DNA of 64,000 nucleotides from Pseudopyrenochaeta lycopersici (Eukaryota; Ascomycota; Dothideomycetes; Pleosporales; Pseudopyrenochaetaceae): contig NHZP01000092.1 of NCBI GenBank assembly GCA_003313425.1, positions 21,696-85,695 of the forward strand. The letters run 5' to 3'. Below, piece by piece: positions 741 to 63,893 of the stretch (position 1 is the stretch's first letter; the number at the start of each line of letters is the position of its first letter). The notes beneath the pieces are model-generated. The model did no database searches. It was not told the origin of the DNA and saw nothing but the letters and a program-made list of their open reading frames with translations. The position numbers were made by a program, and so were the translations under genes.

Positions 741-2335
741 CCTTTCACTAGAAAGTTGTCAAGTGGTCAGGAGCCTTGCGCTTCTGATCCTAGACACTTT
801 ACACGTATGCGTTGCCTACGACTGGAGGGAGTAGCGAAGCGTTAGTCTCTTTAGAGGCTAGGGGCAATGCACGCTTAAGTAACCCGGCGCACGGACGTAG
901 CGCGAGATCATCTGATCTCCGGGTTGCCACATTTTTGGTCTCTGACCTAATTGGCCTGTGGATGCAGGGATGCACGGAGGTGATGTAGGTGCGCGATTGG
1001 GTTGGGAGCGTTGGTTTACTTGTGCACGGACGTGTCACTGCGGCGCGGTGTCTGCGCGTTGTATAAATGGTGCTCGTTCCCACGGGTCTCGTGGCACCGG
1101 AGGTTCTTCTTTTCCTCACTCTTTGAGTGTGCCTTATTATGGATGCACGATGGAATGTCTGCACACTTGTTTCGAGTCAGGGAGCTGACGGACGGTGGAG
1201 CTCTATGTTTACGTCTTGTTTGCAAGGTGGGGCGTTGTACGCTGCTACTGTCGTTGCTGCTGGGACAGCTTTACTTGGGAAGCGGAGGCGTAAGCCCGGT
1301 AGTGATCCGGGTCTCTCCAGAGTAGGTCTCTGTTTGGCGCTTGTGTAGCATGATAATGCTGACTCCTTCGTTTTTGCAGGTTCCGAAGGTACAGAAGGTC
1401 GATAAATTGCTCGAAGGGCCCGCGAAGTGGTTCCTAGAACGTCTGTCAACTATATCCACGAAGTGGGGGTTTCTTAGATCTTGTGGGAGCGAAGAAGTCG
1501 CTTTGGTGGAGAGCTTTTTACGTGCCAAGGTGGACCTTGCAGAGTATAACGTGGTGCGAAATTTAGAAGGCCTGTCTGCTCCCTCTGTTATGGGAAGCCT
1601 CATGTATGGAGCGGATACACTGAGATGTTATCCCTCTGTATTCACGGGGGAGTACCCGCCGTTGAGTGTCGGCGATGGTTGCGGGCCAGTGAATGCTGCC
1701 TCTATGGATATTGTGGAAACCCCGGGACTGTCCGGTTTTGGATCCGGTGGTGGTGGATGCGCTTATGTCGACCCTGCTTGGCTGGAGCCCCCGGAAGGGT
1801 TTTGTTGTTATGCTAGTAGTTTTGTACTTCCTGGCCACTCTGACAGTGTGGCTTCTGATTACGATTCCGCTGATTGGATGTCATTAGCACCAGAACCCTT
1901 TAACAGCGATGAAGGAGAGGGTGGTCTTGGTCTTGTAGAGATGGAGGACTGGGAGCTGGGGGCTCTTACGGATGTGTTGTATGATCGTAGTGGGGATCTG
2001 TTGTTAGGGGAGTATTCGTAGGTATGGAATTATTGTAGGGTATGTCTATTTTATGGTTGACTTATTGTGCAGTTGGTCTACCATTGTGTACGATCTGTTT
2101 TGATGGACTGGATTATGTAGAATACCTATGTTGTATTCGCAAGATTTTTCATTTTGGGTGTGAGCGCCCTTGGGATGGAACACCATCTCCAAAGAAAAAA
2201 AAAATGCATAAGTCCATTTTTGCTGTGGCTGGGGGGGCACGCCGAGTCAGGTTGGCTGTGGCTCGGGAGAGTCAGCTGTGGCGCGGATTCTGCGCGCACA
2301 GACCAGAAATCAACTTTCGAGTGCTATATATGATT
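741..2335 (+). mobile_element. Segment 1 (1,595 bp), first unit after the telomere
   Basis: Noncoding structured module 741-930; its third domain closes with the seven-pair helix AACCCGG (881-887) with CCGGGTT (919-925). TATAAA at 1062-1067, gene 1139-2021. The 2022-2335 tail has no gene and ends in the pre-origin hairpins; the left origin arm is the short CTTTCGAGTGC form. Confidence 0.85.
1139..2021 (+). CDS. Unrecognised protein: hydrophobic N-terminus, acidic C-terminus (spliced)
   Basis: Predicted exons 1139-1321 and 1380-2021 (intron GTAGGT...TTTTTGCAG, 58 bp, phase 0) give 274 aa. The first exon has a hydrophobic stretch (about residues 33-50, rich in A, V and T) followed by KRRRK, which could be a membrane anchor with a cytosolic basic flank. 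The C-terminal third is glycine-, aspartate- and glutamate-rich and ends with bulky hydrophobics spaced among acidic residues (MEDWELGALTDVLYD), a pattern seen in acidic transcription-activation domains. The start is the ATG after TATAAA that keeps the frame across the intron. No relation to the WWxTKESG family is visible. The activator role is speculative. Confidence 0.6.
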
Positions 2336-3917
2336 CCTTTCACTAGAAAGTTGTCAAGTGGTCAGGAGCCTTGCGCTCCTTACCCTTGCCACTTTACAAT
2401 TAAGCAGGGCCGGCGAGTGGAACGAGTAGCGAAGCGGTAGTCTTGAATAAGACTAGGGCCTCTGCACTTAGTAAGCAACACAGCGCACGGACGTAGCGCG
2501 AGATCATCTGATCTGTGGGTTGCCACATTCTTCAGATTTTTTATCTGATTGGTCTATGGATATGGAGGCAGGGAGTGTGCAGGACCCTGCTAACTAGGGA
2601 CTAACACATCTTGGCGGGGCCAAGGGTCTGGGAGACAGATTGAGATATATAAGAGAGGGGAGCGCCCTCCTATCTCTAATATCAACGGAGGTGTGCTTTG
2701 TTCGGTTCAGTTGTAGTCACTACATAGTGAACGTATTGTACGTAAGTAGTAGCGGTAGCTATGGCGATGGAGTCGTTGCACGGAGTTGGCGTTTTCAGAG
2801 AACGTAGTATATTGTGTAGTAACAAGATGCCGGCGGGTACGTCGAGCGAAGCGTTTGCAGGGAGTGAAGAGCAGATGGAATGGGTGCGGAGTCACATTCC
2901 CGGTAGGTACTTCTTTCTCCTCGGGAAGTTAGTATCCTTTAACTGACACTGGGACAGAGTTTGTGGAACAAGGTGTTTCTCTTACATGTCATGTAAACCC
3001 GTGGGGGGCACGGTGTTGGTGGTCAACGAAGGAGAGTGGGAAGCTCTCTCGCGAATGTGTAGAGGAACAGCACAGTCCGTGTCTTAATGATTACGAAGTG
3101 ATTGGCGCGGGCGGCGACAGGAGACGGGCGCTCCTTGTGTTCAAGGTGGACATCTTGGTAGGAGATGAATTGCAGAGCAATGTTGCGTTTGCGCAACTCT
3201 CTTTAGAGACACTGGAGGTGTTCCTGCAGGATGTTTTACCTCGTGTCTACTCGCTTGAAGAGAATTCGGTGGATACCTATATTGTGGACGATTTGTTCCA
3301 CTCGTTAAACGTCGGGTGTTACTCTACGACGGTAGGGTGCGGATGCACGCGTTCTGATATTTGTATGAAGTGCGCGCCGGTGAGGATAGAGCGTGCTAGG
3401 TTTATCGTGCTCCACAGATTTACCTCTGTTTATCCGTTTGGCTTGGGGAGGTGGTTTGATGGAATCAGCGATGCAGCAGGGACTGTGTACCCGTCGGGAA
3501 AAAACTGGTTGAGTTGTTCCCATAGCCGTGTTCTGTAGAGCACGATGTATTTTGTCTGGCCTGGAGGAGCTGCATTGAGGTAGACATAGTAGAGTTTTAT
3601 TAACGATTTTATTGTAAAGGATGCAGAGGAAACGATAGGTATATGTGTGGAGAGCAATTAGCGAGCATAGTGGTAATGCAGGTGTGGACCTGTTATGGCC
3701 GGCAGGTATTGAATTTACATTACGGGGTGTTGTAACGGAGTGTTGTTGTAGGACAACCCAAAAAAAAACGGTAAGTCAAAAAAAAATCCCAAGTTTTTTT
3801 GGCTAAGTCCGATTTTGCTGTGGCTGGAGGGCCATGCTGGGTCACGTTTGCTGTGGCGCGGGGAGCGCACAGGCCCCGACTCAACTTTCTAGTGTGGCGA
3901 AAAGCCTATATATGATT
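2336..3917 (+). mobile_element. Segment 2 (1,582 bp)
   Basis: Structured module 2336-2545, TATATAA 2646-2652, gene 2761-3538. The 3539-3917 tail holds no gene. It has a duplicated GGTAAGTC / GGCTAAGTCC pair in A/T tracts before the origin, a variant also found in segments 13, 19 and 20. Appears identical to segment 11 over all stretches compared. Confidence 0.85.
2761..3538 (+). CDS. WWxTKESG-family protein
   Basis: Predicted exons 2761-2902 and 2958-3538; the 55-bp phase-1 intron (GTAGGT...ctgacactgggacag) joins to a 240-aa product. An in-frame ATG also occurs at 2767, the position used by most relatives. Exon 2 has the family features in order: WWSTKESG, an H-x3-C pair, a hydrophobic LLVFKVD strand, VAFAQLSLETLEVFL, the cysteine cluster C-G-C-x6-C-x2-C, and a C-terminal W-F-D-G-I-S-D-A-A-G with final NWLSC. 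Here the usual SDAVG reads SDAAG. Function unknown. Confidence 0.8.
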
Positions 3918-3935
3918 CCTTTCACTAGAAAGTTG
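3882..3935 (+). promoter_or_regulatory. Replication-origin stem-loop (representative; one at every unit junction)
   Basis: Perfect 13-bp inverted repeat: CAACTTTCTAGTG (3882-3894) and CACTAGAAAGTTG (3923-3935). The loop has a small nested hairpin (GGC-GAAAA-GCC) and then TATATATGATT/CCTTT; the unit boundary falls between 3917 and 3918. Other junctions keep the nested stem while changing its loop (GGCGTTTTGCC, GGCGAACCGCC, GGCGTTCTGCC, GGCGCAGCC) or replace it by GTGC. CRESS-type viruses nick a conserved loop sequence in such a stem; TATATATGATT/CC would be the counterpart of their nonanucleotide. Telomere repeats at this same base in four places support it as the cleavage site. Confidence 0.85.
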
Positions 3936-5514: not shown

Positions 5515-7084
5515 CCTTTCACTAGAAAGTTGTCAAGTGGTCACCAGCCTCGTGCTGGAGACCCTGGACACTTTACATCTAAGCTGTGGCCTCGAGTGGA
5601 ACGAGAAGCGGACGCGTCAAGCTACTTGTAGTTTGGGGCCATTGCCCCCTGTAAGCCAACAGACGCACGGACTGTGTGAGTCAGATGACGCTGGGTTGGC
5701 ACGTGAGGAGCACCCCTGCCCTCACATCTACTAGATGTTCATAGCTATGGACACAACGGAGTGGGCGCATTATGGAATAATAGTCTTGGCAGAGACAGAT
5801 ACCTGGATAGAGTTCGTTATACTATGGAGTGTAACGCTTATAAGGAAACGGGTGTGTCCCGTTACCTTTCCTTATTACCAATTTTTTTTGCGTCTATTTA
5901 CAGCGTGTACCGGGTACCGCTCGTACTAGAGGTATCGAACGTAGCTTGGTGGAGGCAGTTCTTGTTCTTGGACATGTTGTCAGCGTGTAGCGCCCATGAT
6001 GAGTGCTGATAAGGCGTACGTCGCGGAAGCGTTACGCAGTTGTATTGTAGGACGTATGTCGGTCGATAGCCTGGTAGGGCTAGTTTGCGGTGCGTATGGT
6101 TTCGGATACCACTGGTACACTATCCGAAACAACCTTTCTTCCCTTTTGTCAAGGCATGGCGATGCTGCTTAGTGGAATGGATTTTGAGTAGAGTGACAGG
6201 TACTGCTAGTGGGTGCTGGGGAGGCACCGCGGTTTCGGTACGACTGTCCGTTGTTCGCGATGAGGCAGGATGCGTAGGCATGCGAGCGTCAGTGATGCGC
6301 CCGCGTTCATCCTTTCTGTATTGGACGAAGCGTTGTCACGTAGTGCATGGCAAGACGTTGCCGTTACATTTGTCTGAGGGAGGCACTGCTGCGGAGCGTG
6401 TGCGTATTTGTTTGTGGCTGCTCCTTGTGGAGCTTTGCGTAGTTGCGTCGGAGGAGGATGAATTCTCCTCTTGGATTTCACATCGTTACTTGTTGTGTGG
6501 AGCACCTTTTATGGGAATTACGAGGGCTCCGTTCGCGTGGGGGGCCTTCGTAGTATGCGTAGCTATAGTAGTATGGGGGGCTACCTGACCCTGGGAGGTG
6601 TTTGTATGTACATACAGAGAGGGTTTGTTACATAGTATACTATGCATTTATCTAGTCTATACGATATTTATGTTGGTATAGTGTATCATTACCATTATGG
6701 TAATAGTAGATGTATATCTCTTAGTATACGTAGTCAGAGTGTGTAGGTGTCGTAATAACTACGTCTGGTTACGAATAACAGCATAGTTTTTTATATACAT
6801 AGAGTATAATACCATTATACTATGCATTATAGCTAGTTATAAACAGAGCGATTCTATAGTGTTGATGTGTAGAGCGTTTTAATAGTTTCAGGGCTAAGAA
6901 ATAATTTGATTGTATGGATATTTGGTAGAAATTGGGGTGTGAGCCCTTGTAGATGGAACACCATCTCCAAAGAAATTGGCGAAGTCCGATTTTGCTGTGG
7001 CTGGAGGTCACGTTTTACCGGGGTGCTGAAAAATTTTTCAGCCACGACTCAACTTTTCTAGTGTGGCGCAGCCTATATATGATT
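5515..7084 (+). mobile_element. Segment 4 (1,570 bp)
   Basis: Structured module 5515-5725 (first hairpin CCAGC-CTCGT-GCTGG; third domain closed by GCCAAC/GTTGGC). TATAAG 5839-5844, gene 5996-6588. The 6589-7084 tail is A/T-rich with many short palindromes around TATAC and ATTACCATTATGGTAAT and no convincing gene. From about 5730 on it matches segment 40; the first ~215 bp differ. Confidence 0.85.
5996..6588 (+). CDS. Tail-anchored protein, possible Bcl-2-like fold (spliced)
   Basis: Predicted exons 5996-6089 and 6173-6588, with an 83-bp phase-1 intron (donor GTGCGT, pyrimidine tract CCTTTCTTCCC, acceptor GCTTAG), give 169 aa. Exon 1 alone would be a 58-codon ORF ending inside the intron. Exon 1 is helical in character. 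Exon 2 contains GCWGGTAV, a Leu/Val-rich helix, an acidic turn, SSWIS, and a C-terminal hydrophobic span (FAWGAFVVCVAIVVWG) ending five residues from a membrane tail. W-G-x2-[AV] followed by W-I and a tail anchor resembles the BH1/BH2/anchor order of Bcl-2 proteins, but the match is weak and unproven. Apparently the same coding sequence as segment 40. Confidence 0.5.
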
Positions 7085-13388: not shown

Positions 13389-14972
13389 CCTTTCACTAGA
13401 AAGTTGTCAAGTGGTCAGGAGCCTTGCGCTTCTGATCCTGGACACTTTACATGTAAGCAGGGCCGGCGAGTGGAACGAGTAGCGAAGCGGTAGACTACTT
13501 GTAGGCTAGGGGCGCTGCACTTAGTAAGCAGAGCAGAGCACGGACAGTGCGGGTCGTCTGACCCTGTTGTGCCCACTCTTTTTCAGAACGTCAGTCTGAT
13601 TGGTCTATGGCGGTAGACAGATGGAATGGGCATTACATTGCCTGCTAGGGACTAGTGTGTCTTGGCAGTGCCAGAGACGGAGGTGTATATAACTAACTAC
13701 AGCTCCTCTGCTGTTGGCATGGAGTGTTCTTTAAAACTTCATTGCGATGGAATCGCGCACTGGGCAGTATACCGTAGCCTCTACTATGGATCATAGTCAT
13801 GTAGTGTCACTGGACACGCTTGTGTCGGGTCAAAGGGGGGAGCCCTTCCCTGGGACAGTTGCAAACATTGAATACCTGCGGAGTCGGGTGCCGGGTAGGT
13901 GTCTACTTGTTTCTTTTACTTCTAACTTCAGTGGGCCTCCCCCACTGACGGAGTAGCAGAGCTCGTGGAACAATGCGTCTCTCTAGCACTTCATGTGGAT
14001 TTGTCGGGGAGACAGTCTTGGTGGATTACTAAGGAGAGTGGGCAACCTCCTAAGCAGTGTGTAGAGGAGCAACACCTGGAGTGTCTTTCCAAGTTCAATG
14101 AGCGCTTTAGTGCCCTGGGGGATACCCGGCAGTCGCTCCTGGTCCTTAAAGTGGAAACTGTATACTGGAACGAGATGGAACAAACTATTTTGTTTGCGCA
14201 ACTCTCTATGGAGGCACTGGATGTGCTTTTGCAGCGCATAGTATCCCTTCTCATCCTGCCGTCGGGGCAGATTGTGGAACCTTCAGTTGTTAACCGAGTG
14301 GTCTCCCTGTTAGGGGACGGGTACTATAGTACGTGTGTAGACTGCGCATGTATGCCGCTCAGGGTATGTGAGCCTTGTGCGTCGGTAAGTTATAATTCGC
14401 CAAGGTTTGTTCGAAAATGTAGATTTTCAGGTGTGTGGCCGTTTGGAGAGTCCATGTGGTTTGTTGGACTCAGCGATGCGGTAGGAGAGGTACAACCATC
14501 AGGAAGGAACTGGCTTTCGTGTCCCTGTGCGTAGTACGTGTAATGATGATTTTGTAAGATACGGAGTATAATAAGGTAGTAGCAATAGCAATGGTTAGGA
14601 TGAAGTAGATGCTGACTTTGTGCTTTGCAGAATACTACGGTATTATGAACGTTTTTGATGTTATCTATGACTATTATTTATGTTATGTTGTGAGTATGTA
14701 TAGTGTTTTACTTTTTTTTTTTTTTTTTCTATTAAAAAAATAGTACTGATATTGTAATGGCAGTGCCTTGTTAAGCACTAAGGAATTTGTGGTGCGCAGC
14801 TTCATTGTTAAGGGTGGGAGCCCTTCAGATGGAACATCGAACCTCTCGAAAAATGCGTAAGTCCAATTTTACTGTGGCTGGAAGTCACGTTGGGTCACCT
14901 GGGGGTGTGGCGCAGATTGTGCGCACGGGGCAGAAATCAACTTTTCTAGTGTGGCGCAGCCTATATATGATT
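13389..14972 (+). mobile_element. Segment 9 (1,584 bp), first of three copies
   Basis: Structured module 13389-13575 (third domain followed by CACTCTTTTTC), TATATAA 13686-13692, gene 13747-14534. The tail 14535-14972 has a 17-18 nt T-run near 14715 and no gene. Segments 10 and 30 are copies; the only length difference is about 1 bp, most likely in the T-run. Confidence 0.87.
13747..14534 (+). CDS. WWxTKESG-family protein (reference member)
   Basis: Exons 13747-13894 and 13960-14534; the 65-bp phase-1 intron has donor GTAGGT, branch CTGAC and acceptor TAGCAG; 240 aa. Exon 1 (about 49 aa) has LDTLVSGQRGEPFPGT and ends at RSRVP. Exon 2, in order: LVEQCVSL, WWITKESG (about residue 75), a cysteine/histidine pair CVEEQHLEC, strand LLVLKVE, helix LSMEALDVLLQRIVSLL, cluster C-A-C-x5-C-x2-C, WPFGESMWFVG, then LSDAVG and final NWLSC. 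The conserved Cys and His could bind a metal. No signal peptide or membrane span is seen, so it should be intracellular. I do not recognise the family; at least 22 distinct members occur here. Confidence 0.82.
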
Positions 14973-14990
14973 AGGGTTAGGGTTAGGGTT
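14973..14990 (+). repeat. (AGGGTT)x3 telomeric insert at a unit junction
   Basis: Exactly three telomere hexamers sit between GATT of segment 9 and CCTTTCACTAG of segment 10, at the predicted origin cleavage point. No unit bases are lost or duplicated. The same insert recurs at 16576-16593 but not between other units. Confidence 0.95.
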
Positions 14991-16575: not shown

Positions 16576-16593
16576 AGGGTTAGGGTTAGGGTT
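16576..16593 (+). repeat. (AGGGTT)x3 telomeric insert at a unit junction
   Basis: Second internal telomere insert, between GATT of segment 10 and CCTTT of segment 11; same length and phase as the first. Confidence 0.95.
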
Positions 16594-22896: not shown

Positions 22897-24493
22897 CCTT
22901 TCACTAGAAAGTTGTCAAGTGGTCACCAGCCTCGTGCTGGAGACCCTGGACACTTTACATCTAAGCTGTGGCCTCGAGTGGAACGAGAAGCGGACGCGTC
23001 AAGCTACTTGTAGTTTGGGGCCATTGCCCCCTGTAAGCCAACAGACGCACGGACTGTGTGAGTCAGATGACGCTCGGTTGGCACGTGAGGAGCACCCCTG
23101 CCCTCACATTCAACATTATCACGTGGATGCGTGGTTTCCTGGATAGGGTCAGGAGGGGAGCGGGGTGCTCTGTCGGGACGGTACAGTCTTTTTTTGTTGT
23201 GCGGAGCCTGCAACTACTTTGCTCTTTGGAACGAGCATTACTCTACTTCGTCGCGGAAGCGTAATGGTTCGTAAGTTCTGGCTGCGGACGCAGGTGTGCT
23301 TTGTCACTTGGTGTAGGAGTCGCGTTGACGACATCGTTCAGTTTGAGCGTATGCTACGGGATGCAGTGCCGACCGGGACGGCTATGTATGGGTGTAAGGA
23401 ATTGCACCGGGATGGAGTGCCTCATTATCATGCGGTGCTCTGCTTTCCGGAGGAAGTTCGTTGGGATGATGCGCACGCTCAGTTAAGTCTCAAGTTGCCG
23501 GACGGCAGTGTTGATACGCGTTCTATACGTTTTCGCCTGCCACTTGCTGGGCAGCCTGTGGAGCAGTTTCTTCGTCGCACACAAAGGTATTGTGCGAAAA
23601 ATCAAAACAAGGATTTGTTTGGTGTACGCATCGAATGGGATCATATGCGTCCTGGCAGCAAGGCTCCAATACTCAGATGCAGTGCTTGCCTGCATAGTGG
23701 AGCTCTCTCAGATTCATGGGTTTGTTGCGAATGCGCGAACGCACAGAGGCATGAGGAAAGCATGGTATGGTTTTCGTATTTCTTTGTTTCTCCTGTCCTT
23801 GACGTACGTCACGTATGTGTTTTTTGAGGCTGACAATGTGGTTGTCTTTAGGTTCAAGATTTGCTTCTTCAGTTAGATGCAGTGAAGCATCAGTTGAGTG
23901 AATTAGAGCGAGGGACTCGTTCTCTTTTACGGGTAGATCAATTTGATTTGCCTATTCGTGGTGCTGTTCACCGCAGAAATAGCAGTGTTGGTCCGGAGGG
24001 TTTTTAGTATAGTATTATACTTGTCAAGTATGTCTTTTGCAGGTTTTATTTCTTCTTTGGAAAAGGGTAGTGTTACTTTTCTAATGCAGTTATGCTCTAT
24101 GTCTATAGGCAACACGTTCTGTGTTTATGGTTTGGTGTGCAATAGCAAGGGTTTGTTTTACATTCCTAGGGAATTCCTATTGTAGTAGTGTGTAGCTGTA
24201 TTATTATCTGTGGTGAGCAAAGTATTGTAGGATAGTTGCTAAAGGCAGTAGCTATGTCGTATATTGTATGCGTATTTTTATTTTGTTTTGTGTAGCGACA
24301 AGACAAGTATAGGATTGGTAAAGTTGTATTTTTTTGGAACATTGGTTCTGTCTCTCAGAAATTGGCTAAGTCCAATTTTACTGTGGCTGGAGGGCACGCC
24401 GAGTCAGGTTGGGTGTGGCGCGGACTTCGCGCACAGACGGGTCGAGTTGGGGCACGGGCCCCCTCCGACAACTTTCGAGTGCTATATATGATT
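22897..24493 (+). mobile_element. Segment 15 (1,597 bp), HUH-only Rep segment
   Basis: Its first ~200 bp match segment 4 almost base for base. No CCAAT or TATA box; TCACGTGGATGCG at 23119-23131. Gene 23264-24007. The 24008-24493 tail is T-rich and noncoding, ending in the TTTCGAGTGC origin arm. Confidence 0.87.
23264..24007 (+). CDS. HUH-only Rep-like protein with Cys cluster and coiled coil (spliced)
   Basis: Exons 23264-23764 and 23852-24007 (87-bp phase-0 intron, donor GTATGG, acceptor CTTTAG); 218 aa. Rolling-circle motif I VCFVTWCRS (11-19), motif II with the metal-binding HYH (54-56), motif III YCAK with candidate catalytic Tyr109 and Lys112. It aligns collinearly with Rep of segment 16 through this domain (WDDAH.., LPDGSVDTRSIRF). 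No Walker motifs follow; instead there is a cysteine cluster (C139, C142, C154, C155, C157) and, from exon 2, a short heptad-like helix (VQDLLLQLDAVKHQL). It could nick but not unwind, or regulate Rep by dimerising, as RepA does in some geminiviruses. The upstream in-frame start at 23165 is less likely. Confidence 0.85.
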
Positions 24494-26066
24494 CCTTTCA
24501 CTAGAAAGTTGTCAAGTGGTCAGGAGCCTTGTGCTCGGGACCACGACGGCTTTACATCTAAGCAGGGCCTCGAGTGGAACGAGAAGCGAAGCGTTAAACC
24601 ACCTGGGGTTTAGGGCCTCTGCCCCCTGTAAGCGCTAGCCTTTTTGTCACGTGGAGGCGGGAACACATGGAGTGGGCAGTATGTCTCTTTCTACGGAGTA
24701 GTGTATCTTGGCGGAGCTTGAGGTAGGTAGTATTTATATGCGCGCTCTGGCCGATATGTAGCGCGCTATCGTGGAGCGATATTATGGCGGAGCCTACAGT
24801 AGAGACGTGCGATATTTCTACGGTGGGACCGTCGTCCAGGCGGACATCTTTTGCGTCTTTGTTTTCGTGTAGTACGCAAGGAAGTGCGTCGAGCGTAGTC
24901 GATGACCTCCCGGATGGGTGTGGGGAAAGGGAAGCTTTCGCGTTGAGGGTCAACGTTGTTCTTGTAACGTGGTCACAGAGTCGTCTGGAGGACGCGTCCG
25001 AATTTTACAATCTTCTTCAGGAGCGGATGCCTCCTGGTACGGAGATTTACGGTTGTCAAGAGCGCCATGAGGATGGGAAGCCTCATTATCACGCAGTGTT
25101 TCGGTTCACGCGTCGGACGAATTGGGTGGATGCACACCAACATTTTCGAATTTATCTGTCTGATGGCACAGTGGATACAGAGGCTATTCGGTTCTCGGTG
25201 CCTCGCCCGTATCAGCGGGAGTCTGATTTTTTGGAAAACACACAGAATTACTGTTTTAAGTATGATGATTCGGTGTTTTTTGGGACGAGGATCGAGTCAC
25301 TCAGTAGTTCTGAGTCTCGGAAGCGCAAGTTCGCTGAGGTGCTGGTGGAACCTGATTACATTAAAGCGAAACGGATGTTGATGGAACTGGATCCTATGGG
25401 ATTTATCAAGTTTTATAACGCGTACTCGTCCTATCTGGCTAACGAGAAGAAAGGCACGCCTGGACGAGGGTGGGTAGACTCTGGGGAACCCCTGAAGCAA
25501 TGGCGTGTCCCGGTCGCCATGGAGGATTGGCGGAAAAGTTACATTGGGGGGTCATATAAGGGTAGACCTGTCCCCCTCATTCTTGTTGGTCCATCGAGGC
25601 TAGGAAAGACAGAATGGGCTTTGCGTGCAGGGCCCAAGCCCATGGCCATGTCCAATCAGTGGAACCTTGGTAATTATGACCAGGATGCGTCGCATCTCGT
25701 GTTAAACGACATCGATTTCAGCAATTTTGGGTCTGGTAAGTACCGGTATTGGCGAGAAATACTTGGTGGGCAGGCTTGTATTGATGCGCACGATCGGTAT
25801 ACGAAAACACGGAATTTGAGTTGGGGATTTCCAGTCATTGTAACGTGCAATGCAGATAATGACCCTCGGAAAGTTCCTGACATTGCGGCGTATCTGAAGC
25901 ATGCGCCTTGTGTTGTGGTTGAGTTGGCGGATCTACTGTATGTAGATGACGATCTAGCGTAGATAGATAGAATGAAAAATGGCTATGTCCATTTTCGTGG
26001 TGGCGGTGCGGGTCGCGCACAGGCCAGAACTCAACTTTTCTAGTGTGGCGCAGCCTATATATGATT
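24494..26066 (+). mobile_element. Segment 16 (1,573 bp), Rep segment
   Basis: Module 24494-24640; TCACGTGGAGGCG 24647-24659; TATTTATAT 24731-24739; gene 24784-25962. Only 104 bp separate the Rep stop codon from the unit end, the shortest tail in the array, with a single CCATTTT hairpin before the origin. Confidence 0.9.
24784..25962 (+). CDS. rep: Replication-associated protein (Rep), HUH endonuclease plus SF3 helicase
   Basis: Intronless, 392 aa. HUH domain: motif I VLVTWSQS (59-66), motif II with HYH (101-103), motif III YCFK (Tyr156 as nucleophile, Lys159). SF3 helicase: Walker A GPSRLGKT (269-276), Walker B LVLNDID (305-311), motif C VIVTCNAD with Asn356. Length and order are typical of CRESS-DNA virus Rep. 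The ~55-residue N-terminal extension is Ser/Thr-rich and of unknown role. It should nick the TATATATGATT/CC loop, stay on the 5' end, and rejoin it after one round, presumably for every segment since all share the origin. No frameshift or stop interrupts it. The C-terminus is acidic (YVDDDLA). Confidence 0.95.
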   Translation: MAEPTVETCDISTVGPSSRRTSFASLFSCSTQGSASSVVDDLPDGCGEREAFALRVNVVLVTWSQSRLEDASEFYNLLQERMPPGTEIYGCQERHEDGKPHYHAVFRFTRRTNWVDAHQHFRIYLSDGTVDTEAIRFSVPRPYQRESDFLENTQNYCFKYDDSVFFGTRIESLSSSESRKRKFAEVLVEPDYIKAKRMLMELDPMGFIKFYNAYSSYLANEKKGTPGRGWVDSGEPLKQWRVPVAMEDWRKSYIGGSYKGRPVPLILVGPSRLGKTEWALRAGPKPMAMSNQWNLGNYDQDASHLVLNDIDFSNFGSGKYRYWREILGGQACIDAHDRYTKTRNLSWGFPVIVTCNADNDPRKVPDIAAYLKHAPCVVVELADLLYVDDDLA

Positions 26067-35527: not shown

Positions 35528-37093
35528 CCTTTCACTAGAAAGTTGTCAAGTGGTCGGCAGCCTCGTGCTGCCTACCCTTGTCACTTTACAATTAAGCAGG
35601 GCCGGCGAGTGGAACGAGTAGCGAAGCGGTAAACTAGAATTAGTTTAGGGGCATGCACTTAGTAAGCAACGCAGAGCACGGGCGCGTGCTGATCATCTGA
35701 TCACTGCTTGCCCACATTTTCTCAGATCTTTAGTCTGATTGGTCTATGTACATAGAGACATGGAGGGAGCAGCGCTCTGCTATCTAGGGACTAGGTGGTC
35801 TTGGCGAAGATAGCATGGACATCGATATATAAGAGGGGAGCCCCTTCCCCGTTCACGGAGTGTTACTGTTTGTAGGGAATGAACATTCTCTTTTATTATT
35901 TGCTTTTACAATGCGATGGGGTCGCTCCTGGGACAGGGCAGTACTGTAGAGGTTACAGGTGACGGTCATTTACTGTCACTGGACACGCTTCTGCCGGGTC
36001 AGAGGGGCTCCCCCTTCGCTGGGACAGCGGCAAACATTCAAGAGGTGCGGAGGCACATTCCTAGTAGGTATCTACTTCTTTTCTCAGGTTGGGCCCTCCC
36101 CAACTAACATGATGACAGAGTTTGTGGAGGACTCTGTTTCTCTTACCGTTCATGTGGAACTGTCGGGAAAACAATCTTGGTGGCTCACCAAGGAGAGCGG
36201 ATGCCTTCCTAGCGAATGCGTTTCTTGGGACCATACAGAGTGTCTGGAAGACTACAAGGAGTTCTGTGAACGAGGCGGTAGAGCACAGTCGGTCCTTGTG
36301 CTCAAGGTGGATACCCTGGCCAGGGATCAAGTGCGGAGTTCTGTTGTGTTTGCGGAGCTTTCGGTAGAGGCCTTTGATGTGCTTTTGCAGCGCATTTTAC
36401 CTCTTATCGCAACGCCGTCGGGGGAGAGGCTGGATATCGAAGATGTGGAGGCGTTGTTCTATCGACTGCGCTTCGGGTACTATAGTACGCGGGTCGACTG
36501 CGCATGTACCTTCTACACACAGTGTGAGCCTTGTGTGTGTGCACACCGGATTTCATCGAGGTTTGTTCGCTTAGATGGATTTTCCCGTGTATGGGCGTTT
36601 GGAAAGCTTGACTGGTTCGCTGGGATTAGCGATGCGGTAGGAGAAATACAACCATCAGGACAGAACTGGCTTAAATGCTTAGATGATGGTTTTGGTTATC
36701 TTGGAGACCCTTATTTTGTTCAATACGTGTAGCGTAGATAGGTGGATATGCACAGGTACGTTTGTGTAGTATTGGGATTGATATTGGTGTAGTCCGTGTA
36801 TGGCTAATAGTATTGTCTTATAGTACTTTTTGAAATACCTGAGGTTTTTGTTGGACGCAGTATTTTTAGGCATGGAGTGGTGTTTTTGGAACAATCGTTG
36901 CTGTTGGCGTAGGCTGAATTTGGTAAGGGTGTGGACGCCCTGGGATGGAACATTGAAAATTATTTTTCAAAAAATGCGTAAGTCCGATTTTGTTGTGGCT
37001 GGAAGTCACGTTGGGTCACATGGAGTGTGGCGCATGGAGGGGGCACAGGCCCCGACTCAACTTTCTAGTGTGGCGAACCGCCTATATATGATT
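35528..37093 (+). mobile_element. Segment 23 (1,566 bp)
   Basis: Structured module 35528-35720, TATATAA 35826-35832, gene 35916-36732, noncoding tail 36733-37093 ending in the GGCGAACCGCC origin form. Confidence 0.85.
35916..36732 (+). CDS. WWxTKESG-family protein with extended tail
   Basis: Exons 35916-36063 and 36119-36732 (55-bp phase-1 intron, donor GTAGGT, branch CTAAC, acceptor ATGACAG); 253 aa. Start ATGGGGTCG. Exon 2: WWLTKESG, ECVSWDHTEC, cluster C-A-C-x5-C-x2-C, GISDAVG. The family-final NWLSC reads NWLKC and is followed by an extra 15-residue tail (LDDGFGYLGDPYFVQYV) found only here and in segment 33. The two are also alike through most of exon 2 and in the start context. Confidence 0.8.
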
Positions 37094-38680: not shown

Positions 38681-40255
38681 CCTTTCACTAGAAAGTTGTC
38701 AAGTGGTCACCAGCCTTGCGCTGGTTACCCCTGACACTTTACACGTATGCGTTGCCAACGAGTGGAACGAGTACCGAAGGGTTAGTCTTGAATAAGACTA
38801 GAGGCATAAGCCCCTGTAAGCAAAGCAGAGCACGGACGTCGCGGGTCAGATGACTCTTCTTTGCCACTCTTTTTATCAATCGGGTTTCTGATTGGTCTAT
38901 GAACGTAGACGCAGGGACGGGGCACACTCGTGCTCCCTAGGGACTAGGTTTTCTTGGCGTAGCTTGAGGTAGATACCTATATAAGACTAACAGTGGAGCT
39001 GTTTTCACGAAGTGTTCTACTTTGTGTAGTTTCTTTTCTTCTACGCTGCGATTGTATCGCTTGCACTGATTAAGTGCGTACGGAGATTGTCCCATTTGAT
39101 TCTTGTTTAAGAATGGATCACCGCATCAGCGATAGTAGAGCGGCAGGCGTCGCGGGCCAGGATGGCGGGTCTGGTACTGCTGTAGGGATAACCAGCAATG
39201 GGAAGAGGGCGAAGCTTTGTCGGGACGATCCCACTGGAGGTGTTGTCTCTCTATTGCGGAGCAAGGAAGTCGTAGAGGATTTGTTATCACGTGTTCCGGA
39301 GCCATCGCTGATGTCTAGCCGACCTGGTGGGGGAGGCTCGGTGTCGTATCTTTCAGCAACGGATGCTATCCGCCTTGCTAACAGGGTGTTTGGTTTTGAC
39401 GGATGGGCAAACGAAATTCTCGAAGATGAACGGCTTGGAGAGGAACCGGGGCCGGTGTCTAAGACTAGGCAGTCTACTACGACTACGACTACGACGGTCT
39501 ATTGGCGATCGAAGATAGCAGTCACACTGGCGGAGCACTTAGGAGGGGCGCGCCATGAGGATTGGGGCTATGGGAAGGCCACAGCTGCTAGTAAACTCGT
39601 AGCCATTGAGAACGCAGCGAAGGAGTCTGTGACGGATGGCATAAAGCGAGCGTTGATTTTTTTTGGCGAGGCTACAGGGAACTGTTTTAAGGATCATGCC
39701 TATCTCGCCTGGGCACAGCGTGTTATGCGGAGCGGCGAGTGTGCTAGGAAGAGATTTTCTATGGATGAAGTTGTGCGTTTGGATGACGCAGGCAGTGATC
39801 GATGTCCCGCTGGTGGATCTACCAGTGCATTGGCTTCTCGGGTGGCTGTGCCTGTTACGAGGTCTCCTGTTAAGCAGGAAAAAGAGGTGGAACGGCTTGG
39901 TGGGGACGCTGATATATTTGATTCAGATGATTTTGATTATGATATGGGGGAGTTCAATTAGGTACAATGTAACCATTTTTTGTATTACGTTTACATTGCG
40001 TACAGGTTTGGTGGAACTGTTCATTTGGTAACGAACGTTATTCCATTGTAGTTGTTTATTGCGTGGTGCTTCGTCATGAAGGGTGTGGGCGCCCTTGGGA
40101 TGGAACATCAAATCTTCAAAAAAAAATGCGTAAGTCCATTTTCCCTGTGGCTGACAGTCACGTTGGCTGTGGCTCGGGAGAGCGCACATGGGTTGCTGTG
40201 GCGCAGATTGTGCGCGCACAGGCCACAACTCAACTTTCTTGTGCTATATATGATT
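38681..40255 (+). mobile_element. Segment 25 (1,575 bp), RAD52 segment
   Basis: Structured module 38681-38870, TATATAA 38978-38984. GCGATTGTATCGC at 39048-39060 keeps the start-site palindrome but has no ATG. Gene 39113-39961. The 39962-40255 tail is noncoding, with origin arm TTTCTTGTGC. Confidence 0.88.
39113..39961 (+). CDS. RAD52-like: RAD52-family single-strand annealing protein
   Basis: 282 aa, no intron. Residues about 77-200 match the conserved RAD52 N-terminal annealing domain: SYLSATDAIRLANRVFGFDGWA, a beta-hairpin carrying a poly-Thr loop, HEDWGYG, KLVAIENAAKESVTDGIKRAL, and FGEATGNCFKD. The ~75-residue N-terminus has a basic stretch (GKRAKLCR); the C-terminus ends in an acidic tail (DIFDSDDFDYDMGEFN) rather than the RPA/RAD51-binding part of cellular RAD52. 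RAD52 anneals complementary ssDNA and drives recombination-based telomere maintenance in eukaryotes. Here it could recombine or concatenate segments, convert linear ssDNA ends, or help join them to telomeres. Host capture is likely, but no host introns remain. Confidence 0.93.
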   Translation: MDHRISDSRAAGVAGQDGGSGTAVGITSNGKRAKLCRDDPTGGVVSLLRSKEVVEDLLSRVPEPSLMSSRPGGGGSVSYLSATDAIRLANRVFGFDGWANEILEDERLGEEPGPVSKTRQSTTTTTTTVYWRSKIAVTLAEHLGGARHEDWGYGKATAASKLVAIENAAKESVTDGIKRALIFFGEATGNCFKDHAYLAWAQRVMRSGECARKRFSMDEVVRLDDAGSDRCPAGGSTSALASRVAVPVTRSPVKQEKEVERLGGDADIFDSDDFDYDMGEFN

Positions 40256-40455: not shown

Positions 40456-40629
40456 TCAGTACTGTGATTGGTCTATGGAGATAATATCATGGAATGTGCA
40501 CTTAGTTGCTCTCTAGGGACTAGTGTGTCTTGGCAGCGCTCAAGACAGGGACATATATAACAACAGTGTCTCTGTTGGCACGGAGGTGTTGCACTCCCCT
40601 AAGGGACTTTGTGCTCTTTTTGCACTACG

Positions 40630-48118: not shown

Positions 48119-49700
48119 CCTTTCACTAGAAAGTTGTCAAGTGGTCGAGGAGCCCCGTGCTCCTTGACCCCTGACACTTTACATGTAAGCAGGGCCAACG
48201 ACTGGAAGGAGTAGCGAAGCGGTAGTCTTGAATAAGACTAGGGGCGCTGCACTTAGTAACCACAGCAAAGCACGGACGTGTGGTCGTCTGACATGGTGTG
48301 GCACGCTTTGATCTGTGATCTAATTGGTCTATGAACATAGACAGCATGGAGTGGGCAGAACCCTGCCAAGTATGGAATAGTATATCTCGGCAGAGAGGAC
48401 CAGTCGGTAGGGCGCTATATAGGGTGTTCTTTAGCGCTTAGCTTCTGCACGGACTGTGCTTGTAGCAGAATTATAAAGAGAATGGCGTCTGCCGTGATTC
48501 TGTTCTCTTCTTTGGCTGTGCTATGCGGGGCCTTTTTTTGCACAGCTGCGGTGCGTCACACGGAGGTGTGTTACAGAATTGGCCAATTGTCTCGAGCGCG
48601 GGACGCTGTTGTCGCGCGCAATGCGTACGGATGGTATGCTCATAGCCATGGGTACCACACTTTTACGTAGTGTGGACGAGGGGGGTTCGCCAACCCGCTC
48701 ACATGAAAGCGTGTTCTTCCGGAGGGATGATACGAGTAGCAAGACAGTGGCTACTTGGGTGGCAAGCACGTCGTGGCCGCACGTGACTACGTTGCCTCTA
48801 CCTAGTGGTATGAACGGAGGAGGCGGCTCAACTGGTAGCCGTGGAGCGAGCGATGTGTTGTTAGCAACCGTTCTTGCGGTTGTTGCTTTTGTGGCAGCGC
48901 TGGTGGCGCTCTCGTTGGTTTTATGGCGATGCACGGGAAGGTATTACGCGCGTGCTCTGGTGTAGAGCATCTACATTTCACGGCAATGTCGTTTCTGCTA
49001 GGGGCAAAACAAAAACATGCCCTACCATGCTCCGTTTTTTGGTAGCACGGTGCGCTTCTATAAGTTGTTTTGACTCTCTTAGCTGTGGAGCAGCGATTCT
49101 GGGTTGTATGCATAGGGTCTCAATAGTGGGACACGGCAGGCAGGATGCGTCCTCTGTTAAGGCTTCGTTCACCGTGTAGGTGTTATACATATTGCGTCAA
49201 GGATTTGCGCTGTGGGAGCGTTTGGTGTATGGTACAATATAGCTGCAGAGCTAGTCTCTTGCTGGGAACGGTGAATGCCGGTTGTTTGTTTCTGTTAGTA
49301 CTCAGTAAATTCACAAAAAAAAATACTGAGTATTTACGTTGGAGTTACAGAGGGACGTAGTATAGTTTGTATTGGTAAGTACCTATTTTACGGTTTATGT
49401 CTTTTATTTTCTGTTTCTTTAAAATAAAGTTATGGTGTATTGTAAAGTATAGTAATTGTATTGCGTAGGCTTTGTACGGTGGTAAGAGCAACAAAGGATT
49501 TGTGGTGCAGAGGTCAGTCAGGAAGGGTGTGGGCGCCCTTGGGATGGAATACCGAAGATCAAAAAAAAATGCGTAAGTCCATTTTCCGTGTGGCTGACGG
49601 TCATGCAGAGTCACGCTGGGTTGCTGTGGCGCGTTTTGCGCACAGACGGGTTGTGATGGGCACGGGCCCATTCCGTCAACTTTCGAGTGTATATATGATT
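48119..49700 (+). mobile_element. Segment 31 (1,582 bp)
   Basis: Module 48119-48305; third domain closed by CCACA/TGTGG. TATATAGG 48416-48423, gene 48482-48965. The 48966-49700 tail is the longest noncoding stretch of any unit (735 bp); a 101-codon ORF overlaps it in another frame but has no supporting feature. Confidence 0.84.
48482..48965 (+). CDS. Signal-peptide plus membrane-anchor protein (probably spliced)
   Basis: The first ORF (48482-48670) starts with a clear signal peptide: a hydrophobic core VILFSSLAVLCGAFFC with small residues at a likely cleavage site (TAA). The second, in another frame and open to 48965, has a Ser/Thr/Gly-rich stretch, a strong membrane span (48852-48926, DVLLATVLAVVAFVAALVALSLVLW) and a short basic tail (RCTGRYYARALV). 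The joint is uncertain: acceptor TTTTACGTAG ends at 48670, and the phase-2 donors that fit leave an intron of under 50 nt. Joined, this would be a type I membrane protein on a cell or virion surface. Function unknown; a frameshift rather than an intron is possible. Confidence 0.6.
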
Positions 49701-51273: not shown

Positions 51274-52848
51274 CCTTTCACTAGAAAGTTGTCAAGTGGT
51301 CAGGAGCCTTGCGCTCCTTGACCCCTGACACTTTACTGTAAGCTCTGGCCGTGAGTGGAGCGAACAGCGAAGCGGTAAACTACTTGTAGTTTAGGGCAAG
51401 AGACCCCGGTAAGCAAAGCAGAGCACGGACAGTGCGGGTCATCTGACTCTTCTTTGCCACTCTTTTCAGATTTCTTATCTGATTGGTCTATGTACATAGA
51501 GACATGGAGGGAGCAGCGCTCTGCTATCTAGGGACTAGTGTGTCTTGGCAGGATGCAAGAGACAGAGATGTATAAGAGGGGAGCTCCCTCTCCGCTCATG
51601 GAGTGTGAATGTTTGTGGGGACTGAACATTCTCTTTTATTCCCTTATTTTACAGTGCGATGGGGTCGCTCCTGGGACAGTGCAGTACCGTAGCCTCTACT
51701 ATGGATCATAGTCATGTAGTGTCACTGGACACGCTTGTGTCGGGTCAAAGGGGGGAGCCCTTCCCTGGGACAGTTGCAAACATTGAATACCTGCGGAGGC
51801 ACATTCCTAGTAAGTATTGTTTTCTCCCTCGTCTGGTTGGGTTCTCCCCAACTTACGGAGTTACAGGGCTGGTGGAGCGATTGACTTCTCTCACCTGCCA
51901 TCTAAAGCCGGATGGCAGACAACGTTGGTGGTATACTAAGGAGAGCGGGCAGCCTCCTAGCGAATGCGTTTCTTGGGACCATACAGAGTGTCTGGAAGAC
52001 TACAAGGAGTTCTGTGAACGAGGCGGTAGAGCACAGTCGGTCCTTGTGCTCAAGGTGGATACGTTGGTTAGGGATCAAGTGCGGAGTTCTGTTGTGTTTG
52101 CGGAGCTTTCGGTAGAGGCCTTTGATGTGCTTATATGGCGCATTCTACCTCTTATCGCAACGCCGTCGGGGCAGAGGCCGGATATCGAAGTTGTGGAGGC
52201 GTTGTTCTATCGACTGCGCTTCGGGCACTATAGTACGCGGGTCGACTGTGTGTGTACCTTGTACATAAGGTGTGAGCCCTGCGCATTGGTGGTAAGCCGT
52301 GAGTTACCAAGGTTTATTTGGCAAAATTATTTTTCTTGTGTATGCCCGCCTGGAAAGCGAGACTGGTTTACTGGACTCAGCGATGCGGTAGGAGAAATAC
52401 AGCCATCAGGAAAGAACTGGCTGAAATGCTTAGATGATGGTTTTGGTTATCTTGGAGACCCTTATTTTGTTCAATACGTGTAGCGTAGATAGGTGGATAT
52501 ATACAGGTATGTTTGTGTAGTATTGTGTAGTATTGGGATTTTTATTGGTGTAGTCAATATGTTTACATTGTGTACAGGTTTGGTTGAACTGTTTATTTTG
52601 TAAGGAACGTTATTCCATTGTAGTTGTTTATTGTGTGGAGCTTCATTAGTAAGGGTGTGGGCGCCCTTGGGATGGAACATCAAACCTCTCAAAAAAAAAT
52701 AAAAAATTGGCTAAGTCCGATTTTGTTGTGGCTGGAGGCCATGCTGAGTCACCTGGGGGTGTGGCTCGGGAGAGCGCAGACATGGGTTGCTGTGGCGCAG
52801 ATTGTGCGCACAGGCCTCTCCGACAACTTTCTTGTGCTATATATGATT
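51274..52848 (+). mobile_element. Segment 33 (1,575 bp), mosaic
   Basis: Structured module 51274-51465, TATAAG 51571-51576, gene 51659-52483, noncoding tail 52484-52848. The promoter and first codons resemble segment 23, the middle of exon 1 segment 9, exon 2 segment 23, and the pre-origin end segment 13. Confidence 0.86.
51659..52483 (+). CDS. WWxTKESG-family protein, mosaic of two relatives
   Basis: Exons 51659-51809 and 51867-52483 (57-bp phase-1 intron, donor GTAAGT, branch-like ACTTAC, acceptor GTTACAG); 255 aa. The intron is open and in frame, so a 274-aa unspliced form is possible. Exon 1 starts MGSLLGQ as in segment 23, then switches to the segment 9 text (SLDTLVSGQRGEPFPGT). Exon 2: WWYTKESG, ECVSWDHTEC, cluster C-V-C-x5-C-x2-C, LSDAVG, NWLKC, and the DPYFVQYV tail shared with segment 23. 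Confidence 0.8.
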   Translation: MGSLLGQCSTVASTMDHSHVVSLDTLVSGQRGEPFPGTVANIEYLRRHIPSKYCFLPRLVGFSPTYGVTGLVERLTSLTCHLKPDGRQRWWYTKESGQPPSECVSWDHTECLEDYKEFCERGGRAQSVLVLKVDTLVRDQVRSSVVFAELSVEAFDVLIWRILPLIATPSGQRPDIEVVEALFYRLRFGHYSTRVDCVCTLYIRCEPCALVVSRELPRFIWQNYFSCVCPPGKRDWFTGLSDAVGEIQPSGKNWLKCLDDGFGYLGDPYFVQYV

Positions 52849-60711: not shown

Positions 60712-62307
60712 CCTTTCACTAGAAAGTTGTCAAGTGGTCAGGAGCCTTGCGCTCCTTACCCTTGCCACTTTACAATTAAGCAGGGCCGGCGAGTGGAACG
60801 AGTAGCGAAGCGGTAGGCTTTTTAAAGCCTAGGGCCATTGCCCCCTGTAAGCAAGCCGAAGCACGGACGTCGCGGGTCAGATGATCACTGCTTGCCCACT
60901 TTTCTCTCAATCAATCATTTGATTGGCTTATGGATATAACTACATGGAATGAGCAGGCCCCTGCCAACTAGGGACTAGGTTCTCTTGGCATCGCGCGAGG
61001 TCGGGAAAGACATATAAGAGGGGAGGCCGTCCCCCCGCTCACGGAGTGTGTTTGGGTACATTGCTGTTCTACGTAGAGGGACAGCGAAGTTGTAATAGGC
61101 ATGGCGGAGGCCGTGTCAGAGATGCCCTCTCCTATGTTGTATGGCAACACTGAGTTTCAGTCATGGTTTGCGGAGCTAACAGCAGTGGTGGTCCCGAACG
61201 GGTTGACTTGTGCACCCTTGCTTTCTGCGCGGATTGCGGAGGTGCCGGAAGGGCAATGTTTGGTACAGTCAGAAGGAACGACGGAGGAGTTGCAGGTGGT
61301 GAGGAATCACCTTGATGGTTAGCACAGTCCTTTTTTTTTGGTGGACTGTTTTTCTGAAGCTAATGAGTAGCTTCAGTACTGGTGGAACACAGTGTTTCAG
61401 TAAGTTGGTTGATCACCGCGGAGAGCGTGTCCTGGCGTTTAACGCGAGAGAGTGGCGCCCTTCCCGCACAATGTAGTCGGGTGGATGGATCTTCTTGTTT
61501 TGCGTGTAAAGCAACTGGAGAGGATTTGCGTCGTTCCTACCTCGTGGTGGAGGCCAGTGGATGGTGGTGGAACGAGTCTGTCTGGTTTGCAGAGGCAGTG
61601 TGTGCTCTCCTTACGCGAGATGCGTTGGACATGGTGGTGTCAACTGTGTTGCCCCGTTTCATAGAGTTGCGGGCGCAGGGCGAAGGAACGTATGGCTGTC
61701 GGCAGCGGTGGGCGTTAACGGAAGTTACGACCTATGTTGATCGTTTGAATAACGGTGCATATTCTACAGATGGTAATCGATGTAAGTGTTATCTAGTAGG
61801 ACTGTGTACTGCATGTGATGCAGTAACGGAGGGTCGGCGTCGGTTTTTACGTATACCACAGTTTCAGGGCGTGTTTCCACGGGGCCGGCAGCATTGGTTT
61901 GCTGGTGTTACAGACTCTACACAGTTGTTGTTGTTCAGTGGGTTCCCATGGCTGAGTTGTGCTTCTGGGTGGCAGAGCTTGTGATCCTACTTTAGTTGTG
62001 TTATCGGCACAGAGAGTAAGGTATGTCTTGTATTTTCTGTTGTCTTGTAAGAACTATGTTTGTTCTTTTTTTGGTTACTATTATTTTATAGTAGAGCTAT
62101 GCGTAGGTTGAGTTTATTTTTAGCGTAAGCTGAATTTGTTAAGGGTGCGAGCCCTTCAGATGGAACATCGAATCTTCTCCAAGAAAAAATGCGTAAGTCC
62201 ATTTTCCCTGTGGCTGGAGGGCACGCAGAGTCACGTTTTACCGGGGTGCTGAAAAATTTTTCAGCCACTCCTCAACTTTTCTAGTGTGGCGCAGCCTATA
62301 TATGATT
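60712..62307 (+). mobile_element. Segment 39 (1,596 bp)
   Basis: Structured module 60712-60905, ATATAAG 61012-61018, gene 61101-61984, noncoding tail 61985-62307 with GCTGAAAAATTTTTCAGC next to the origin. Confidence 0.85.
61101..61984 (+). CDS. Most divergent WWxTKESG-family protein that keeps both ends
   Basis: Exons 61101-61317 and 61377-61984 (59-bp phase-1 intron); 274 aa. Exon 1 is long (72 codons) and keeps only a trace of the RDHVP mark (RNHLD). The intron has donor GTTAGC and two strong hairpins (AGTCC...GGACT around a T-run; GAAGCTA/TAGCTTC), which could affect splicing. Exon 2: SWRLTRESG, one fewer Cys/His pair, cluster C-K-C-x5-C-x2-C, and VTDSTQLL in place of SDAVG before PWLSC. 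Intron position and phase prove the kinship. Confidence 0.75.
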
Positions 62308-63882
62308 CCTTTCACTAGAAAGTTGTCAAGTGGTCAGGAGCCTTGCGCTCCTTGACCCCTGACACTTTACACGTAAGCAGGGCCCGCGAGTGGAACGAGA
62401 AGCGGATGCGTCAAGCTACTTGTAGTTTGGGGCCATTGCCCCCTGTAAGCAACGCGAAGCACGGACGTAGCTTCTAGATCATTCTGATCGTGGGTTGCAC
62501 GTGAGGAGCACTCTTGCCCTCACATCTACTAGATGTTCATAGCTATGGACACAACGGAGTGGGCGCATTATGGAATAATAGTCTTGGCAGAGACAGATAC
62601 CTGGATAGAGTTCGTTATACTATGGAGTGTAACGCTTATAAGGAAACGGGTGTGTCCCGTTACCTTTCCTTATTACCAATTTTTTTTGCGTCTATTTACA
62701 GCGTGTACCGGGTACCGCTCGTACTAGAGGTATCGAACGTAGCTTGGTGGAGGCAGTTCTTGTTCTTGGACATGTTGTCAGCGTGTAGCGCCCATGATGA
62801 GTGCTGATAAGGCGTACGTCGCGGAAGCGTTACGCAGTTGTATTGTAGGACGTATGTCGGTCGATAGCCTGGTAGGGCTAGTTTGCGGTGCGTATGGTTT
62901 CGGATACCACTGGTACACTATCCGAAACAACCTTTCTTCCCTTTTGTCAAGGCATGGCGATGCTGCTTAGTGGAATGGATTTTGAGTAGAGTGACAGGTA
63001 CTGCTAGTGGGTGCTGGGGAGGCACCGCGGTTTCGGTACGACTGTCCGTTGTTCGCGATGAGGCAGGATGCGTAGGCATGCGAGCGTCAGTGATGCGCCC
63101 GCGTTCATCCTTTCTGTATTGGACGAAGCGTTGTCACGTAGTGCATGGCAAGACGTTGCCGTTACATTTGTCTGAGGGAGGCACTGCTGCGGAGCGTGTG
63201 CGTATTTGTTTGTGGCTGCTCCTTGTGGAGCTTTGCGTAGTTGCGTCGGAGGAGGATGAATTCTCCTCTTGGATTTCACATCGTTACTTGTTGTGTGGAG
63301 CACCTTTTATGGGAATTACGAGGGCTCCGTTCGCGTGGGGGGCCTTCGTAGTATGCGTAGCTATAGTAGTATGGGGGGCTACCTGACCCTGGGAGGTGTT
63401 TGTATGTACATACAGAGAGGGTTTGTTACATAGTATACTATGCATTTATCTAGTCTATACGATATTTATGTTGGTATAGTGTATCATTACCATTATGGTA
63501 ATAGTAGATGTATATCTCTTAGTATACGTAGTCAGAGTGTGTAGGTGTCGTAATAACTACGTCTGGTTACGAATAACAGCATAGTTTTTTATATACATAG
63601 AGTATAATACCATTATACTATGCATTATAGCTAGTTATAAACAGAGCGATTCTATAGTGTTGATGTGTAGAGCGTTTTAATAGTTTCAGGGCTAAGAAAT
63701 AATTTGATTGTATGGATATTTGGTAGAAATTGGGGTGTGAGCCCTTGTAGATGGAACACCATCTCCAAAGAAATTGGCGAAGTCCGATTTTGCTGTGGCT
63801 GGAGGTCACGTTTTACCGGGGTGCTGAAAAATTTTTCAGCCACGACTCAACTTTTCTAGTGTGGCGCAGCCTATATATGATT
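62308..63882 (+). mobile_element. Segment 40 (1,575 bp), segment 4 body with another 5' module
   Basis: First ~215 bp (62308-62520) differ from segment 4: hairpin GGAGC-CTTGC-GCTCC instead of CCAGC-CTCGT-GCTGG, third domain GCAACGC/GGTTGC instead of GCCAAC/GTTGGC. The rest matches at an offset of 56,798 bp: TATAAG 62637-62642, gene 62794-63386. The unit ends at GATT directly before telomere repeats. Confidence 0.87.
62794..63386 (+). CDS. Tail-anchored protein, copy of the segment 4 gene
   Basis: Exons 62794-62887 and 62971-63386 (intron 62888-62970); same product as segment 4. Intact second copy with a different upstream module. Confidence 0.5.
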
Positions 63883-63893
63883 AGGGGTTAGGG

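Follow-up and report, generated by a model that had tools for sequence, protein, structure and literature searches.

The fungal virus BcssDV1 is tetrasegmented; each of its circles, about 1.7 kb in size, carries one gene together with two common regions and a stem-loop for which a nick at TT^CA (in full TACTCTT^CA) has been proposed, and Rep and capsid protein are encoded on different segments (PMC10731770). The tripartite Fusarium graminearum gemytripvirus 1 (FgGMTV1) likewise represents a multipartite circular single-stranded DNA (ssDNA) system of fungi with a Rep, a capsid protein and an extra segment, and tandem copies served as infectious clone (PMC11708013). The present analysis deals with a stretch of 64,000 nucleotides (nt) from Pseudopyrenochaeta lycopersici (assembly GCA_003313425.1, contig NHZP01000092.1, positions 21,696 to 85,695; in the following, the window), which is the last 64 kb of a contig of 85,695 bases (C92) and contains a telomere-bound array of virus-like units of about 1.6 kb. 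Most of these units resemble BcssDV1 in gene content per unit, common regions and stem-loop, with the capsid protein here being a candidate; in contrast, BcssDV1 consists of four separate circles, compared with at least 65 unit types in the arrays read here, and the accessible part of its description mentions neither integration nor telomeres and reports no RAD52 (PMC10731770). FgGMTV1, too, differs in having three segments, with chromosomal or telomeric copies not described in the part of the report available (PMC11708013). A literature search did not find a comparable system described, in agreement with an earlier note on the window, made from the sequence alone, which had noted that the system looks undescribed.

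To our knowledge, elements known on telomeres are either copied from RNA or, as some herpesviruses, bring their own telomere repeats. MoTeR is a fungal telomeric retrotransposon of the non-long-terminal-repeat (non-LTR) type without a Rep origin, and the herpesviruses in question integrate in telomeres using their own telomere repeats and homologous recombination. In telomerase-deficient yeast, circles bearing telomere repeats become tandem copies on many chromosome ends, again by homologous recombination. Unlike the herpesviruses and yeast circles with their own telomere repeats, the units in P. lycopersici offer only GATT and CC ends. FoTeR is fungal and telomere-associated like these units, but is a non-LTR retrotransposon without Rep origin (PMC12857005). 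The Terminons of bdelloid rotifers share attachment to G-rich chromosome ends, head-to-tail arrays, short telomere repeats and, in some copies, a Rep, but are reverse-transcriptase elements of up to 40 kb that are mostly 5'-truncated and carry their own complementary telomere stretch (PMC6431247). A geminivirus-like transposon of Tuber melanosporum, with 42 genes or remnants, is similarly Rep-related, recently amplified and fungal; it differs by its interspersed location, terminal inverted repeats of 37 bp and transposase frames, and telomeres are not mentioned in the accessible text (PMC3198968). By analogy, the P. lycopersici element works like a multipartite circular Rep-encoding ssDNA (CRESS) replicon and lives where telomeric retroelements live. 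Its Rep has the nuclease and helicase motifs expected for the Genomoviridae. On the characters compared, the element was kept out of this family because of its unit size (1556-1607 bases versus genomes of 1.8-2.4 kb; PMC10731770), its non-standard loop and a capsid protein that is only a candidate, and out of the retroelements because of its end geometry and because no reverse transcriptase was found in the scans given below. Assignment to Helitrons was also rejected, as RepHel proteins exceed 1,500 amino acids (aa) (PMC6431247), compared with a 392-aa Rep in a 1573-base unit here.

Within the window, CTTTCACTAGAAAG is found 40 times on the plus strand and not once on the minus strand, at a spacing of 1556-1603 bases, and all 40 units start with CCTTTCACTAGAAAG. 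Directly preceding 37 of them is TATATATGATT, and telomere repeats precede the other three (units 1, 10 and 11). At 100% identity, 34 different unit sequences can be distinguished (identical are 2 and 11, 7 and 37, 10 and 30, 12 and 35, 13 and 20, and 24 and 34), unit 9 being one base apart from units 10 and 30. The assembly comprises 62,731,430 bases in 188 contigs; for the PacBio assembly of Pyrenochaeta lycopersici ER1518, 62,731,747 bases in 188 unitigs and a read N50 of 12.6 kb have been published, and the main text of that report, as far as available, has no match for either 'telomer' or 'virus' (PMC6034849). The assembly contains 893 copies of a 17-base origin core (reversed control, 0), from which a total of about 1.4 Mb of units, or 2% of the assembly, can be calculated. 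Nine array stretches on eight contigs, amounting to 129 units, were read, with normal units measuring 1556-1607 bases. All 129 are oriented alike, with the unit strand being the G strand and running towards the chromosome end. Clustering of the 122 full units at 95% identity (seven units of less than 1500 bases were left out) resulted in 65 types, 33 of which were seen once and 15 twice (Chao1 estimate, about 101), and 33 types do not occur in the window. Unit order is random, with 112 of 113 neighboring pairs being distinct at an expected median of 112. Pairs of the same type are 100% identical in 78 of 94 cases; the 11 types with internal differences show indels of one base, differences clustered close to the ends or a retained telomere patch. 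Altogether, the arrays look like a population of units sampled repeatedly at many chromosome ends.

The co-oriented units with one origin hairpin between telomere tracts that the earlier note had described are thus present as stated. Its further proposal of a single genome of about 32 segments inside a telomere can be followed only in part. The number is right for the types in the window, but the 893 cores, the 33 of 65 types outside the window, the random order and the presence of one orphan gene family on 40 of the 65 types speak against one 32-segment genome. Likewise, the location at a telomere stands, and the array is better described as having grown outward from a short telomere before receiving a new cap. 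The two 18-nt telomere patches inside the array (Table 1) do not appear in the note.

The inverted repeats flanking a unit-unit join form a hairpin with GATTCC in its loop. When folded as DNA, five of five joins beat their dinucleotide shuffles (z between -2.3 and -5.2). The loop reads TATATGATT^CC, which is not a standard nonanucleotide, and Rep is predicted to nick it at GATT^CC, corresponding to a cut between 24493 and 24494 where units 15 and 16 meet. End regions are common to all 65 types compared: the first 25 bases are almost totally conserved, and conservation decays within about 280 bases on the right-hand side of the join and 200 bases on its left.

Throughout the assembly, 41 distinct joins between telomere and unit were detected, all of them GGTT|CC, and the reversed control pattern gave no match. 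Forty read TTAGGGTT|CC, and one (C4) has an extra G. Nineteen are internal patches starting with GATTAGGG and ending with GGTTCC, at lengths of 6 (seven cases), 12 (two), 18 (five), 24 (four) and 30 nt (one). Another 21 are presumed host-side, and in all 14 that were read, non-element sequence is found upstream of telomere tracts that remain in exact register over 5, 8, 14, 15, 17, 18, 18, 19, 19, 20, 20, 20, 21 and 22 nt. At the other end of six arrays, outer telomeres of at least 69-118 nt are present, these lengths being lower bounds because the tracts run to the contig end; telomere follows GATT in two of these arrays and a shortened last unit in four. All 120 origin-to-origin intervals are normal, without any 5'-shortened unit. 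By similarity extending up to the join, the 14 host flanks can be sorted into nine unrelated groups: one formed by C92, C83, C10 and the left side of C23 (86%), one by C119 and the right side of C23, one weakly by C4 and C89, and six single flanks. The 1.59-Mb contig C10 and C92 overlap at 99.6%, the join included. This overlap links the array with a large chromosome and also means that some ends are present twice in the assembly.

HUH-type Reps nick an origin loop and remain bound to the 5' end, which they later connect to a 3' end so that a circle is closed. As the telomere joins lie at the predicted Rep cut base, the units likely attach as DNA and not through RNA. Moreover, the fixed inner base, together with the uniform orientation and an outer side that varies, can be read as the trace of a nuclease holding a 5' end and joining a free 3' end. 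The join geometry points to a virus-type DNA nuclease, a signature searchable in other genomes. We consider it rather probable that a Rep-encoding virus-like element of many unit types resides at many chromosome ends, likely via Rep joining its nicked 5'-CC end to a short telomeric 3' end. In such a process, Rep would nick the shared hairpin loop at GATT^CC and stay on the 5'-CC end. Instead of closing a circle, this end would be passed to the GGTT-3' of a chromosome end with about one to four repeats, GGTT being similar to GATT, the usual substrate of Rep for joining. The resulting GATT-3' end might then accept the next CC end, with outward growth proceeding unit by unit or by ready-made concatemers. 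Alternatively, telomerase would extend GATT by AGGGTT repeats, producing a patch where a further unit is added and a cap otherwise; erosion of the end before this step would leave a last unit that is shortened and healed. Since each unit-unit join rebuilds the full origin, Rep would also be able to release circles, and a probable role of RAD52 is annealing or recombination of units through the shared end regions. Given how short the acceptor tracts are, joining may be restricted to young or worn telomeres. The maintenance of intact identical gene copies (nine for Rep, 13 for RAD52 and eight for the capsid candidate) was counted in favor of this mechanism. An extended version, in which a swarm of Rep-encoding circles uses its replication nuclease as telomere ligase, rivals telomerase, can leave from rebuilt origins and lengthens or caps worn host ends, is put forward only tentatively and is more doubtful.

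Several points weigh against Rep-mediated attachment. The pattern used for finding the 41 joins (TTAGGG followed by CCTTTCACTAGAAAG at a distance of 0-12 arbitrary bases) detects only joins beside an intact unit start. On the telomere side, the break can be placed only to two bases because GATT and GGTT share TT, the CC side being exact. One internal patch (C65) begins at a worn end, TATATA|GGG, instead of GATT, the C4 join with its 5-nt tract stands after an imperfect repeat, and the host-side evidence comes from 14 of the 21 presumed joins. Furthermore, not all telomeric contig ends bear an origin: none is listed on C17 and none is found within the terminal 4.7 kb of C62. Rep is carried by only one of the 122 clustered full units, so it must act in trans or a few units supply it. 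Unit-unit joins by themselves could also arise by recombination within the shared core. Finally, all evidence comes from assembled sequence.

Among the other explanations, the one surviving best, albeit unlikely, is that telomeres receive circles or concatemers by host or RAD52-driven recombination, with annealing at TT and in the shared origin region. RAD52 in 13 identical copies, a core making unit-unit joins recombinable and differences between same-type copies that cluster near the shared ends in the manner expected of recombination all fit this scenario, but two shared bases hardly account for all 41 joins falling on the same base of the unit, and the 120 normal intervals without 5'-shortened units as well as the single orientation are poorly explained. 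Spread of a single old insertion by exchange between subtelomeres, with units being shuffled by unequal recombination, is improbable. Subtelomeres are repeated, and C92, C83 and C10 indeed share one flank, as do C119 and the right side of C23; however, the flanks of C83 and C92 are identical while their first units differ, at least nine flank groups are unrelated, and the telomere patches within arrays indicate repeated capping. A very small probability is given to an assembly product, in which the assembler would have strung circles or extrachromosomal concatemers together and joined them to telomeres. The common core of the units, the many identical unit copies and the ends present twice (C10 and C92) would favor such an error, but chaining would place telomere repeats neither at one unit base in 41 places nor behind shortened last units as caps, and reads with an N50 of 12.6 kb span several units (PMC6034849). 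A telomeric retroelement of the MoTeR, FoTeR or Terminon type can practically be dismissed, as, in spite of the same place, the head-to-tail arrays, the short telomere repeats between copies and the Rep genes that Terminons can carry, no reverse transcriptase appeared in Pfam scans of proteins from 24 of the 25 types outside the orphan family, and shortening affects the outer 3' end, compared with most Terminon copies being 5'-truncated (PMC6431247). If attachment by Rep holds true, the arrays would represent a chromosomal archive for multipartite ssDNA replicons, unit types of such a system would rise from a few to dozens, and a DNA-based extension of chromosome ends would exist besides telomerase, recombination and retrotransposons.

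Most units carry a single gene on the plus strand, with only short or doubtful frames in units 4, 40 and 22, so that the one gene per unit claimed by the earlier note applies to most but not all of them; its circular-ssDNA-virus-like layout, consisting of a Rep, a common origin hairpin and mostly one gene per 1.6-kb unit, was recovered. Also the two Rep-type proteins and the RAD52 that it had named were found (Table 1), namely a geminivirus-type Rep, a nuclease-only paralogue and RAD52. Matches of the Rep to Gemini_AL1 and Gemini_AL1_M are weak, both being under Pfam's own cut-offs. A protein search gave 14 relatives at E ≤ 1e-40, including proteins from Pyrenophora and Colletotrichum, as would suit an ascomycete host, and their alignment reveals the conserved stretches LVTWS, PHYHAV, YCFK, GPSRLGKT and VTCNAD, which we take to be HUH nuclease and superfamily 3 (SF3) helicase motifs. 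The contig bearing the relative from Pyrenophora tritici-repentis measures exactly 1,600 bases, as much as a single unit. Besides its intact identical copies, the Rep gene is present in two broken ones, and the paralogue is found at three places in the assembly. The 13 RAD52 copies are all full-length. In addition to the identical copies of the capsid candidate, two short pieces exist; sequence searches with this protein did not give any match, and its identity is a guess from one unit type encoding a basic N-terminus.

Table 1. Features of the unit array and its genes; positions refer to the window unless stated otherwise.
Feature	Position	Strand	Description	Basis
Array	741..63882	+	40 units head to tail, 32 types at 95% identity	sequence reading, clustering
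Inner telomere tract	721..740	+	20 nt in exact register, ends GGTT directly before CC of unit 1	TTAGGG repeats
Internal telomere patch	14973..14990	+	(AGGGTT)x3, 18 nt, between units 9 and 10	
Internal telomere patch	16576..16593	+	(AGGGTT)x3, 18 nt, between units 10 and 11	
Outer telomere	63883..64000	+	118 nt to contig end, directly after GATT of unit 40	TTAGGG repeats
Origin hairpin	24467..24513	+	between units 15 and 16, an example of the 37 unit-unit joins	DNA fold z -3.98
Rep	24784..25962	+	392 aa, unit 16 (1573-base unit), nuclease and helicase motifs	weak Pfam matches, relatives, alignment
Nuclease-only Rep paralogue	23264..23827	+	unit 15	46% identity to Rep over residues 50-171
RAD52	39113..39961	+	unit 25	Pfam PF04098 E 8e-28, far above cut-off; human RAD52 chains match
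Unit 1 gene	1139..2021	+	274 aa, one predicted intron	no Pfam relative found
Orphan family example	13747..14534	+	unit 9, predicted exons 13747-13894 and 13957-14534	splicing predicted
Capsid candidate	L022 8416-9477	-	353 aa, very basic N-terminus; outside the window	

The orphan family has members in 26 of the 40 units and 21 of the 32 types of the window, and many members show a predicted intron at the same place. No Pfam match was obtained for the three members scanned. A protein search gave one relative, from Macroventuria anomochaeta on a contig of 386,615 bases, indicating that such elements may sit in other Pleosporales as well. From the 26 members, 282 of 325 pairs were computable for the ratio of nonsynonymous to synonymous substitution (dN/dS), which is below 1 in all 187 pairs at ≥45% identity, with medians of 0.34-0.52 by identity class at high dS. 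By eye, unit 33 (51274-52848) appears mosaic-like, its encoded N-terminus being similar to that of unit 9 (13389-14990) and the C-terminus to that of unit 23 (35528-37093).

Units 4 (5515-7084) and 40 (62308-63882) are 97.7% alike; 45 alignment columns differ, and the 30 listed are confined to positions 30-169, which would fit an exchange of the shared end region. Unit 31 (48119-49700) encodes a short protein with a signal-like N-terminus and a hydrophobic C-terminal stretch, as judged by eye. At L009 975-5780, a frame of 1601 aa with Pfam matches to OrsD, DEAD and Helicase_C is present, presumably akin to telomere-linked helicases. Upstream of the array, window positions 1-720 consist of purine-rich subtelomere with a plus strand nearly free of C, and another purine-rich subtelomere at L009 6900-10000 has 0.6% C on the plus strand and a TpA/ApT value of 8.5; the base bias of both resembles strong one-sided decay by repeat-induced point mutation (RIP).

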